In this document: positions 41,684 to 45,904 of the stretch, piece after piece | How the letters are laid out: each line of letters opens with the position of its first letter | How positions within the stretch are numbered: position 1 is the stretch's first letter | NCBI GenBank assembly: GCA_905618945.1 | Contig: CAJQTF010000011.1 | Coordinates: 99,870-163,869, forward strand | DNA from: an uncultured Methylophilaceae bacterium | Lineage (GTDB): Bacteria; Pseudomonadota; Gammaproteobacteria; Burkholderiales; Methylophilaceae | Reading direction: 5' to 3' | Length of the DNA: 64,000 nt | Made by a program: the position numbers and the translations under genes | Notes under the pieces: model-generated | Seen by the model: only the letters and a program-made list of their open reading frames with translations | Told to the model about the DNA's origin: nothing | Databases searched by the model: none

Positions 41684-42616
41684 TTATTCCCATTCTAATT
41701 TTGGGTAAACTTGATTAATATTTCTAGAATTCTGTACATCAAATAACTCCCATTTTTGTGATTCAGATTGAGCCACTGTTTCTATTGCCTTTCGAAGGCC
41801 TTGGTCCTCAGCAATTGAATGTCTAATATCATCTCTTAAAGTTATAAAGTAGTCTTTGCTTTTCTTAAAAGCTTCTTGCCAATTTTTTGTTGGCGTACCA
41901 TGCCCAGGAATAACTAGATTAATATTATCTAGTGAAATTAGTTGAGCCAAAACATCAATAAACCCATGTATATCTCCATCTATTACAGGTGTTCGCTCAA
42001 TAAACAATAAATCCCCAGCCCAAAGTGTCCCAGTTGTAATATCTGTAATGGTTACATCACTATCAGTATGAGCTGGTGGATAGGCAGTTATTTTAATTTC
42101 TCTTTCCCCTAAATCAAAAAGTATACTTTCATTTTCTTGGATAAGAATTGATGGAGGAATTTGTATAGATTTTTTAAACGGAATTTTGAGATATCTAAGG
42201 TTTAATGTTTCATAGAAGTTTTTTCTAAACTGCATCGCTTTTGGAAGCTTGCTATGGCCAACGAATTTTGTATTGAGATCGTTGAATGCTGCATTGCCAT
42301 ATATATGGTCAAGATGAACATGAGTATTTATTACATATTTGATAGGAAGAGATGTTTTTTCTCGAATACTTTTTTTTAGTAACTCTCCAATTAACAAGCT
42401 TCCACCAGTATCAATGACTGCAACGCTATCTTTGCCAATGATAAAACCAATGTTACATATGTCCCCCTGGTAGCTTTCATCAATATCTAAATGCTTACCT
42501 TGGTGAACAAATATTCCTGGCGCTACTTCAATAAGATTTAACTGAATTGAACTTGCTAAGATGCTTTGCGCTAAAAAAGTTAAAAAAAAGAGATAAAGCG
42601 CTAGTTTTTTTTTCAT
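41684..42616 (-). CDS. MBL-fold hydrolase resembling quinoprotein relay system zinc metallohydrolase 2
   Basis: Signal peptide; APGIFVHQGKHLDID...NIGFIIGKDSVAVIDTGGS; THVHLDHIYGNAAF; AYPPAHTDSDV; LWAGDLLF. Confidence 0.82.
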   Translation of the reverse strand: MKKKLALYLFFLTFLAQSILASSIQLNLIEVAPGIFVHQGKHLDIDESYQGDICNIGFIIGKDSVAVIDTGGSLLIGELLKKSIREKTSLPIKYVINTHVHLDHIYGNAAFNDLNTKFVGHSKLPKAMQFRKNFYETLNLRYLKIPFKKSIQIPPSILIQENESILFDLGEREIKITAYPPAHTDSDVTITDITTGTLWAGDLLFIERTPVIDGDIHGFIDVLAQLISLDNINLVIPGHGTPTKNWQEAFKKSKDYFITLRDDIRHSIAEDQGLRKAIETVAQSESQKWELFDVQNSRNINQVYPKLEWE

Positions 42617-42668: not shown

Positions 42669-43271
42669 ATGAGCAGTCCTACAAAAAAATATTCTAATAT
42701 TGCAATTATTTTACATTGGTTAATTGCTATTGGTATTTTCTTTATGTTTTATCTTGGCTGGTTTATGGAGGCTTTACCAAAAGAAGCGCCTAAATCATCA
42801 AACTATGATTTATTTAACTTAGGTATTTATTCATGGGAACTTGTTAAGGAAGCCTCGCCAAGAGCTTTCTACTTTAATCTTCATAAGTCTATTGGACTTA
42901 CAATATTTGCTCTTATAATTTTTAGAATTATTTGGCGATTGACTCATCGCCCACCGGCTTTGCTTAAAACAATGAAGTTATGGGAAAAAAGATTAGCTAA
43001 CGTAGCTCATCATGGACTTTATTTACTGATGTTCTTAATACCTTTATCAGGAATCATTATGTCTATTGGAAGTAAGTACGGCATTAAGTGGTTTGGTATT
43101 AAGGTTATTCCTGGCATTGATGATTCTGGATTAAGAGAGTTATTTCTTGAATTTCATCAAATTTTTGGGGTGTTAATTTTATGTGTTTTATTTTTTCATA
43201 TTATTGGAGGCCTAAAACATTCGTTTGTAGATAAGGATGGAACACTTAGAAGAATGTGGTTTAGCAAGTAA
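42669..43271 (+). CDS. Cytochrome b561 family protein
   Basis: Four TM with conserved His (ILHWLIAIG, FNLHKSIGLT, HHGLYLLM, FHIIGGLKH). Confidence 0.92.
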   Translation: MSSPTKKYSNIAIILHWLIAIGIFFMFYLGWFMEALPKEAPKSSNYDLFNLGIYSWELVKEASPRAFYFNLHKSIGLTIFALIIFRIIWRLTHRPPALLKTMKLWEKRLANVAHHGLYLLMFLIPLSGIIMSIGSKYGIKWFGIKVIPGIDDSGLRELFLEFHQIFGVLILCVLFFHIIGGLKHSFVDKDGTLRRMWFSK

Positions 43272-43311: not shown

Positions 43312-44154
43312 ATGCCTATCGATATTTTAACCATAACAAACCACGATCGTAATATCTTTCAAGGGAAATATATATATCCTGTTGTATCAAGGAGAGCAGG
43401 TGGCTTGTCTTTAGGAATTAATTTAAATACAAACAATGCTTGTAACTGGCAGTGTATTTATTGTGAAGTTCCAAATTTAGTAAGAGGTAAACCAGAAACT
43501 ATTAATTTAAAAGAGCTAGAGAGTGAGCTTGATTATTGGCTTGATCAAATAATTAATAAATCTTTTTTAAGTCAATATACTAAAAGTAAAACAGAGTTCA
43601 AAGATATAGCTTTCTCTGGGAACGGAGAACCAACAGCATCTAAACAATTTAAGGATGTAATTTGTATTTTAATTAAGAAGATTAACGAATATAAATTAGA
43701 TAAAAAAATAATAATTCGTTTGATTACAAATGGGAGTTATATGGCTAACCCTGTTATACAAGAATCATTATCTTTGATAAGAAATTTTAATCGTGAAATC
43801 TGGTTTAAAATAGATGGCGTGAAAGAACATGATATACAAACGGTTAACCAAGTTAATTTATCATTAGTGACTATTAAAAAAAATCTTGAGGCTGCACTTA
43901 ACAATGGCCCTACGGTTATCCAAACCTGCTTTTTTAAATTAAATGAACAATTACCGAGCTTGGAGTCATTGGGAGCATATATTAATTTTTTAAAACTTTA
44001 TGAGAATAAAGTTAAAGGAATACATCTTTATAGTTTGGCTAGATTATCTGAACAGCCTAGTCAAAATAAATTAACACGACTTACAAAATTCGAATTAGAA
44101 GTTATTGCTAGTAAAATAAAAATATTAAACATTCCAGTTCAAATTTTTTCTTAA
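43312..44154 (+). CDS. Radical SAM protein
   Basis: CNWQCIYC (CX3CX2C) motif, FSGNGEPTAS. Confidence 0.9.
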   Translation: MPIDILTITNHDRNIFQGKYIYPVVSRRAGGLSLGINLNTNNACNWQCIYCEVPNLVRGKPETINLKELESELDYWLDQIINKSFLSQYTKSKTEFKDIAFSGNGEPTASKQFKDVICILIKKINEYKLDKKIIIRLITNGSYMANPVIQESLSLIRNFNREIWFKIDGVKEHDIQTVNQVNLSLVTIKKNLEAALNNGPTVIQTCFFKLNEQLPSLESLGAYINFLKLYENKVKGIHLYSLARLSEQPSQNKLTRLTKFELEVIASKIKILNIPVQIFS

Positions 44155-44161
44155 ATACGAT

Positions 44162-45904
44162 ATGAAAATTTTATTAATTATTTTTTTGAGTTTATTTTTA
44201 TTAACTGCTTGCCAAGAGAAAAACGATGATTGGAGCTCTTATGGCAAAGACCTTACTAATCAACGGTTTTCGAAATTAGATCAAATAAATATTAAAAATG
44301 TAAAAAATTTGGAATTAGGTTGGCAATATCAAACAGGAATTAGTGCAACTTTTCAAGCTACTCCTATTGTTCATAAGGGCATTATGTATGTATCTTTACC
44401 TTTTAACAATGTCATTGCTTTAGATGGAAAGACAGGTAAAGAATTGTGGCGGTATGAACACGATAGAAACCATAACTGGAAAATGTGCTGTGGACCAACC
44501 AACCGGGGAGTGGCGGTCCATGGTGACCAGATTTTTTTTGGGACTGTTGATGCAAGACTAATTTCACTCGACATTAAAACTGGCGAAAAAATTTGGGATA
44601 TTAATGTTGTAGAGAAAGTAGTAGAAACAGAATCTTTAAGCTCGCTAAATGAATTAGATCCAAACCGAGATAAAATTATAAGTGGCGGAACGGGCGTTGG
44701 TATTTCTATGGCGCCTGTTGTTTATAAGAATAAAGTAATTATAGGAATTACAGGTGTTGGCTATGGCCTTCATATAGAAGAACAGGGGAGCGACTCACCA
44801 TTAGGTGCGGTGGTTGGAGTTGCTGGAAGGTTTGGAAGACCCGGGTTCTTAGCGGCTTATGATATTCATTCTGGTAGACAAGTATGGCAATTTGATACAA
44901 TTCCTAAACATGGATGGGAGGGCAAGTTTACAAATTATACTGGTGATGGCGAAGTGCTTAATCGTGATACCTATCTTGAAAAAGAAGCACTAGCTCAATA
45001 TCCAGACTCTGCTAAATATGGTGGAGGTTCTGCATGGACAACCCCTGCAATTGATGAAATAACAAATACACTTTTCTTTGGAACTGGAAATCCTTCCCCA
45101 CAGATGAGTGCAGAAACCAGGCCTGGGGATAACCTTTATACAGTTTCATTAGTGGCTTTAGATGCCGATACAGGTAAATTAAAATGGTTTTATCAGCAAG
45201 TACCTCATGATACATGGGGATATGATGTTGCTAGCCCGCCTTTATTATTTGACACTATTAAGGATGGCAAGGTAATAGCTGCCGTTGGCCAAGCTGGCAA
45301 AACAGGGTGGTTTTATATACACAACAGAGATAATGGCGAGCTTTTAATGAAATCAGAAGCATTTGTTCCTCAAAATAATTTATTTGCTAAAGCTACTCCG
45401 GAAGGAACTGTAATTTATCCAGCTATTCTTGGGGGTTCAAATTGGTCACCGGTTAGTATGAATTTAGATCACCATCTAGTATATGTTTCTGGTATTCATG
45501 CTCCCATTAAATATACTCTTCATGAAAAAATATCTAATAATAAAGTAATTAAATATACTAGCTCTGAACCTTCTGGCGATCCTCAATGGGGATTATTATC
45601 AGCTATAAATGTATCAACTGGTAAAATTAAATGGCAACATACAACAGAGCAACCTCTTTTAGGCGGGTCTCTTGCTACAAAAGGAAATTTAGTTTTTCTA
45701 GGTGAAGGTAATGGTGACTTTAATGCTTTTAATGCAGTTAATGGGGAGTTAATTTGGCAAACAAATATAGATGCAGGAGTGAATGCCCCACCAATTACTT
45801 ATATGATTAATGATAAACAATACGTTGCTGTTGTAGCTGGAGGAAATAAAATTATGGGTTACAAGCAAGGAGATTATATAAGTGTGTATCAACTTCCAGA
45901 ATAG
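44162..45904 (+). CDS. PQQ-type quinoprotein dehydrogenase-like lipoprotein with altered active site
   Basis: Lipobox LLTACQ; beta-propeller W-repeats; adjacent Cys109-Cys110; SAWTTPAID; GTGNPSP; altered GRFGRPG and HDTWGYD. Confidence 0.85.
   Translation: MKILLIIFLSLFLLTACQEKNDDWSSYGKDLTNQRFSKLDQINIKNVKNLELGWQYQTGISATFQATPIVHKGIMYVSLPFNNVIALDGKTGKELWRYEHDRNHNWKMCCGPTNRGVAVHGDQIFFGTVDARLISLDIKTGEKIWDINVVEKVVETESLSSLNELDPNRDKIISGGTGVGISMAPVVYKNKVIIGITGVGYGLHIEEQGSDSPLGAVVGVAGRFGRPGFLAAYDIHSGRQVWQFDTIPKHGWEGKFTNYTGDGEVLNRDTYLEKEALAQYPDSAKYGGGSAWTTPAIDEITNTLFFGTGNPSPQMSAETRPGDNLYTVSLVALDADTGKLKWFYQQVPHDTWGYDVASPPLLFDTIKDGKVIAAVGQAGKTGWFYIHNRDNGELLMKSEAFVPQNNLFAKATPEGTVIYPAILGGSNWSPVSMNLDHHLVYVSGIHAPIKYTLHEKISNNKVIKYTSSEPSGDPQWGLLSAINVSTGKIKWQHTTEQPLLGGSLATKGNLVFLGEGNGDFNAFNAVNGELIWQTNIDAGVNAPPITYMINDKQYVAVVAGGNKIMGYKQGDYISVYQLPE

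Follow-up and report, generated by a model that had tools for sequence, protein, structure and literature searches.

A widely conserved quinoprotein subfamily with glycine in place of the catalytic aspartate and a link to the PQQ system

The gene at positions 44162..45904 (plus strand) of the window, as we call the whole stretch of 64,000 nt from an uncultured Methylophilaceae bacterium that was analysed, encodes a member of an undescribed, widely conserved quinoprotein subfamily, in which the aspartate that serves PQQ-dependent alcohol dehydrogenases (PQQ-ADHs) as catalytic residue and metal ligand is replaced by glycine. We refer to the members as WGYD proteins after the motif containing this glycine. 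Our searches of the literature accessible without subscription found no paper describing the subfamily or pseudoenzymes of this family. Co-occurrence with PQQ synthesis and the composition of several operons support a link of the subfamily to the PQQ system. The WGYD protein may be an accessory quinoprotein of a PQQ-dehydrogenase system and no ordinary alcohol dehydrogenase, a reading to which we give slightly less than even confidence.

The open reading frame is intact and encodes 580 amino acids, starting with a lipoprotein signal peptide whose LLTAC lipobox had already been pointed out in the first-pass annotation of this DNA. The protein matches Pfam PF01011 with 316 bits, and its best NCBIfam model is TIGR03075 (423.4 bits, under the cutoff of 480.05), the family of PQQ-dependent methanol/ethanol dehydrogenases. 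When the protein was aligned to PDB chains, both by profile and pairwise, the closest solved structures were PedH (6zcv), ExaA (1flg) and quinohemoprotein ADHs. An AlphaFold2 model built from a 66-sequence alignment (pLDDT 91, pTM 0.91) had PedH 6zcv as its best Foldseek match (TM 0.77-0.80), and its 30 best matches were all PQQ dehydrogenases. The protein is thus modelled as an eight-bladed propeller of the PQQ-dehydrogenase fold and is predicted to be a periplasmic, lipid-anchored relative of methanol and ethanol dehydrogenases. The host genome (~1 Mb, 78% complete) also encodes a canonical XoxF (L002), which is ~33% identical to it. Isolates of Methylophilaceae are the closest relatives with a name, and the host is thus most likely a Methylophilaceae bacterium of the marine type.

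The active-site residues that the first-pass annotation had read from motifs were all found where it had placed them, on the plus strand: the vicinal Cys109-Cys110 in KMCCGPT (44486..44491), the PQQ-floor Trp292 in GGGSAWTTPAID (45035..45037), the metal-ligand Asn310 in GTGNPSP (45089..45091), Arg223 in GVAGRFGRPG (44828..44830), and Gly353 (45218..45220) together with the lanthanide-position Asp355 (45224..45226) in HDTWGYD. The alignments to PDB chains also bore out its assignment of the two lost residues, since they place Gly353 where PedH, ExaA and other quinoprotein ADHs have their catalytic Asp, and the AGRFGRPG stretch opposite the metal-loop Glu of their xEFGVxG. Compared with the features of TIGR03075, the vicinal Cys, the Trp floor, the Asn ligand and the Arg and Lys contacts are present in the quinoprotein. 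Absent are the metal-ligand Glu of the xEYGVRG loop, at which the alignment places Arg223 or Gly200, and the catalytic and metal-ligand Asp of W-D-[YF], with Gly353 instead. The motif D-x-D is used as the criterion for lanthanide-dependent PQQ-ADHs (PMC11996626); the quinoprotein reads G-Y-D, and the second Asp is kept in 100% of the clade.

To describe conservation, 109 subfamily members were compared with 19 other quinoproteins. Of the members, 98% have Gly and 2% have Asn at position 353, while Asp is found there in 19/19 of the outside sequences, and this clade-wide difference shows that the change is more than chance. Much of the remaining pocket is kept: Asn310, Asp355, Asp350, Trp428 and Lys380 (45299..45301, plus strand; the equivalent of Arg/Lys331 of methanol dehydrogenase, MDH) are found in 100% of the members, the vicinal Cys pair in 98%, Arg115 in 94% and Trp292 in 84%, with Tyr in most others and Tyr, Phe or Ile in some basal members. 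On the other hand, MDH Glu55 corresponds to Gln65 (92%), MDH Thr159 to N, A or S and MDH Ser174 mostly to Thr; the MDH numbering of these three is that of MDH structures. Since several PQQ contacts are altered too, PQQ binding may be lost.

The column of Arg223 behaves differently from that of Gly353. It contains R in 36%, K in 15%, N in 14%, Q in 11% and Glu in some of the 109 members, while 17/19 outside quinoproteins have Glu. Thus, the Glu position is unconstrained and Arg223 is no signature of the subfamily. The first-pass annotation had proposed a subfamily in which the metal-ligand Glu and the catalytic Asp are lost, and this part is upheld by the 109 sequences, their conservation and the tree described below. 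Its additional suggestion that AGRFGRPG and WGYD might be conserved together as a clade had to be abandoned: only the Gly of WGYD is fixed, and AGRFGRPG was ruled out as a clade signature, the Arg column lying at the 17th percentile of conservation.

The loop bearing the metal-ligand Glu has also been rebuilt (44738..44851, plus strand). The canonical loop reads (I/V)xGxSGxEYGVRGF, and subfamily members have 23-24 extra residues after GxxG, which gives two similar stretches, in the quinoprotein IIGITGVGYGLHIE (residues 193-206) and VVGVAGRFGRPGFL (217-230). Because of this insert, GITGVGYGLH with Gly200 could equally well correspond to the metal loop, and no Glu is present there either. Neither copy has a Glu at the ligand position, and no conserved Glu exists in the copies of the subfamily. 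In the WNYD protein L115, the stretches IVGVSGAGYGLTLR and VVGVSGVKYGLRAF are the best self-match (score 37, z 5.8), and the offset of +23/24 is also the top self-match in L113, L111, L129, L131, L133 and L101, although not in every member and not in the protein of the window itself. These self-matches suggest that the insert likely began as a tandem duplication, the copies of which have since diverged. In the AlphaFold2 model the insert region forms an extra beta-hairpin (203-206/214-219).

The same change is present in most congeners and in the six other Methylophilaceae genera searched. The best 80 loci listed from a contig scan include Zoogloea, Limnobacter, Methylophaga, Hyphomicrobium, Hansschlegelia, Panacagrimonas, Methyloversatilis, Rhodospirillaceae and others, as well as single MAGs labelled Gemmatimonadetes and Methylomirabilis, and the subfamily is spread wider than these 80. 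One contig, L107, comes from a MAG labelled Klebsiella pneumoniae; it carries a WGYD gene and matches G037, a genome of the window's own order, so that the label looks like a misassignment. In the phylogeny that the first-pass annotation had recommended, the W[GN]YD proteins form one clade (77 rows, SH-aLRT 98), with two WNYD proteins nested inside it. The sister clade of six sequences keeps GEYG/AEYG and WDLD, and the XoxF and PedH types lie outside. The cutoff of TIGR03075 (480.05) splits the proteins in the same way as the tree: six other WGYD/WNYD members score 380-446, the two sister proteins tested 523 and 483, and XoxF 602.

Among congeners dN/dS is 0.08-0.13, and together with the intact frames this rules out a pseudogene or decay; with the pocket otherwise conserved and dN/dS at ~0.1, the subfamily is not decaying. 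The gene is dispensable, since the four near-complete congeners G001, G003, G005 and G015 are without it, yet keep XoxF and PqqE. A second paralogue in genome G246 (L136:417-2207) also has WGYD, but its vicinal Cys pair is gone (TKAGPANRG); by its sequence it appears to be one step further from a normal quinoprotein.

Co-occurrence with PQQ synthesis was analyzed in 377 genomes of the class, 12 of which carry a WGYD gene and 54 of which have PqqE over the cutoff. Eleven carriers belong to these 54, and in the remaining one PqqE is present as a fragment, bringing the total to 55/377. The association has a Fisher p of 3e-11 with the fragment genome and of 2e-9 without it, both uncorrected for kinship. 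In none of the 32 genomes checked was the WGYD protein the only PQQ dehydrogenase, and because every carrier checked has another one, the presence of PQQ genes cannot be attributed to the WGYD protein alone. A specific tie to methanol oxidation was considered and is unsupported: XoxF is found in 7/12 carriers and in 19/43 other PQQ makers (p 0.52). The SoxYZ-like protein TIGR04557, by comparison, is present in 12/12 carriers versus 28/43 other PQQ makers (p 0.013).

In the window, a gap of 7 nt separates the quinoprotein gene from the upstream gene of a radical SAM protein without a specific family match (43312..44154, plus strand), which is probably its operon partner and is found directly upstream in most congeners examined. 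In Zoogloea oleivorans (L082) a radical SAM homologue is located ~3.6 kb upstream of the quinoprotein gene. Further upstream in the window is a gene for a cytochrome b561 family protein (42669..43271, plus strand; PF01292, 116.7 bits), which is local to the genus and could possibly act as membrane electron acceptor. On the opposite strand, 1.5 kb from the quinoprotein gene, a SoxH-like quinoprotein relay system zinc metallohydrolase 2 is encoded (41684..42616, minus strand; TIGR04559, 365.4 bits versus a cutoff of 280). It is the sole marker near the gene in the window, a marker being TIGR04557, TIGR04558/TIGR04559, TIGR04494 or a PQQ-ADH beside the WGYD gene.

In five lineages the WGYD gene is in or beside PQQ-ADH clusters, while marker genes are absent at many other loci. 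In Panacagrimonas (L095, L096/L151) and in a gammaproteobacterial MAG (L103/L149) six genes are located on one strand in the order PQQ-ADH (TIGR03075; 777 bits in L151), cytochrome c550 PedF (TIGR04494), binding protein, SoxYZ-like (TIGR04557), SoxH-like (TIGR04558) and WGYD, the last two of which overlap in L103. The betaproteobacterium L084 has the order WGYD-SoxYZ-SoxH, and in Limnobacter pqqBCDE, PQQ-ADH, SoxH, SoxYZ and WGYD lie within ~17 kb. For five loci with SoxYZ so near, copy number and genome size give p ~7e-5, a rough figure that ignores kinship. A PedG/XoxJ-like binding protein is encoded just upstream of WGYD at six Zoogloea loci and at one locus of a Rhodocyclaceae MAG. In the Hyphomicrobiaceae MAG L092 a PQQ dehydrogenase is followed by a MoxJ-like/cytochrome fusion and then by WGYD; the product of the intervening gene (846-2162) is predicted to be a MoxJ-type binding protein fused to a c-type cytochrome domain. 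However, the neighbours are unrelated to PQQ in many lineages, including the gammaproteobacterial MAGs L106, L111 and L112 and Methylophaga (L083), and thus the linkage to PQQ-ADH genes is recurrent, not general. No universal partner gene was found, and in many lineages the WGYD gene is an orphan among housekeeping genes.

The alignment and the tree show how the subfamily arose from a canonical PQQ alcohol dehydrogenase. The loop bearing the metal-ligand Glu gained an insert, probably by tandem duplication, this Glu disappeared, and the Asp acting as metal ligand and general base changed to Gly, or to Asn in one side branch. Since the rest of the cofactor pocket is under strong selection, the most likely mechanism is, we infer, that PQQ or a PQQ adduct is still held, in a pocket incapable of ordinary metal-assisted hydride abstraction from alcohols. 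The accessory job could be that of a PQQ-holding, transfer or repair protein, or of a redox relay via the vicinal Cys pair, and the putative partners would be the SoxYZ-like carrier, the SoxH-like hydrolase and a binding protein of the PedG/XoxJ type. Both PQQ binding and the accessory role are inferred. It is tempting to go further and to speculate that Proteobacteria, along with a few MAGs from other phyla, have retained a PQQ dehydrogenase that is catalytically rebuilt or dead to serve their PQQ-ADH systems as a dedicated accessory, which holds, transfers or repairs PQQ or oxidises a SoxYZ-bound substrate, but in this full form we regard the idea as rather unlikely.

The first-pass annotation had considered that the metal site or the reaction might differ, or that the role might be non-enzymatic. 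Our data are compatible with all three, and add the strict co-occurrence with PQQ synthesis and the operon linkage to partner genes of PQQ-ADHs. A different reaction would mean an oxidoreductase using PQQ and an incomplete metal site (Asn310, Asp355) on a substrate that is not a free alcohol, such as a C1 or sulfur group bound to the arm of a SoxYZ-like protein, the product being freed by the SoxH-like metallohydrolase. Two lineages with the gene order ADH, c550, binding protein, SoxYZ, SoxH, WGYD and a third with WGYD-SoxYZ-SoxH are consistent with this, as is the retention of the vicinal Cys, Lys380, Asn310 and Asp355, and the newly fixed Gly could provide space for a bulky carrier arm. Still, the protein has no evident general base, most carriers have SoxYZ but not next to the WGYD gene, and we consider such a reaction fairly improbable. 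That the protein is instead a PQQ dehydrogenase of alcohols, aldehydes or sugars with an unusual site, in which residues of the insert or the WEG motif (Trp252-Glu253-Gly254) would replace Glu and Asp, seems improbable to us. Trp252 and Gly254 are conserved in 100%, Glu253 in 92% and the insert residue His204 in 88% of the 109 members, which speaks for such a site, as does the co-occurrence with PQQ synthesis. However, sister proteins in which both Glu and Asp are intact have WEG as well, so that it is no replacement for the lost residues, and His204 is replaced in some members.

Alternatively, the protein could be an empty quinoprotein, a PQQ-free beta-propeller serving as scaffold or binding platform like BamB or the acidobacterial empty quinoproteins. 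The second-best NCBIfam match is indeed TIGR04528 (335 bits), the PQQ contacts Glu55 and Thr159 are lost, and the protein in the window is a predicted lipoprotein. This must be weighed against scores that stay below the cutoffs of both TIGR04528 (335 < 650) and BamB (106 < 285), against the finding that all sampled carriers make PQQ, and against a pocket whose conservation ranks among the highest in the protein. We hold a PQQ-free scaffold to be improbable, and retain the accessory quinoprotein as our working model.

The WGYD subfamily is of importance for several reasons. The usual classification of PQQ dehydrogenases relies on two or three residues of the active site, and in a 2025 ocean survey 26.5% of the marine PQQ-DH sequences had neither the Ca nor the Ln motif, with no function stated for them (PMC11996626). 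Judging from their G-x-D motif, WGYD proteins would fall into this group. A subfamily that is without the base and a metal ligand, and has kept the pocket and a link to PQQ makers, makes it possible to test which features of the site are needed for catalysis and which for cofactor handling. Further, WGYD provides a specific partner to the SoxYZ- and SoxH-like genes beside PQQ-ADHs, the role of which was left open in a 2026 review (PMC12997753); if the accessory or SoxYZ-substrate reading were true, it would explain the function of these genes. Last, the role of WGYD is open to experiment, since several carriers are named, cultured methylotrophs, among them Methylophaga aminisulfidivorans and Hyphomicrobium facile.

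Among known systems, the lanthanide ADHs of the PedH/ExaF type (6zcv) and the TIGR03075 proteins share with WGYD the eight-bladed fold, the vicinal Cys, the Arg, the Trp floor, the Asn and the Asp of the lanthanide position. WGYD differs from them in the absence of the metal Glu, the Gly in place of the catalytic Asp, the insert in the metal loop and the score below the TIGR03075 cutoff (423 < 480). XoxF of the host genome belongs to the same PQQ-dehydrogenase superfamily, but keeps GAEFGVR and WDYD and passes TIGR03075 at 602 bits. Nearest to WGYD in the tree is the sister WDLD clade, from Rokubacteria/Methylomirabilota (L118-L120) and Burkholderiales (L036-L038). It has the motifs GNPSP, GWEG/GHEG and HD-W in common with WGYD, whereas it retains the Glu of GEYG/AEYG and the Asp of WDLD, is without the insert and passes TIGR03075 in both proteins tested (523 and 483). 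This clade is itself a little-described group of PQQ dehydrogenases. The acido-empty-quinoprotein group A (TIGR04528), which going by its family name we assume not to hold PQQ, likewise has a propeller like that of PQQ dehydrogenases, but the quinoprotein reaches 335.5 bits against a cutoff of 650, and WGYD carriers make PQQ. With the model of BamB (TIGR03300) it scores 106 bits, under the cutoff of 285.2. SoxYZ- and SoxH-like proteins accompany PQQ-ADHs with vicinal Cys according to the same 2026 review, in which they were proposed to act in maturation, in redox control or in shielding PQQ from sulfur (PMC12997753), and WGYD proteins would fit any of these roles.
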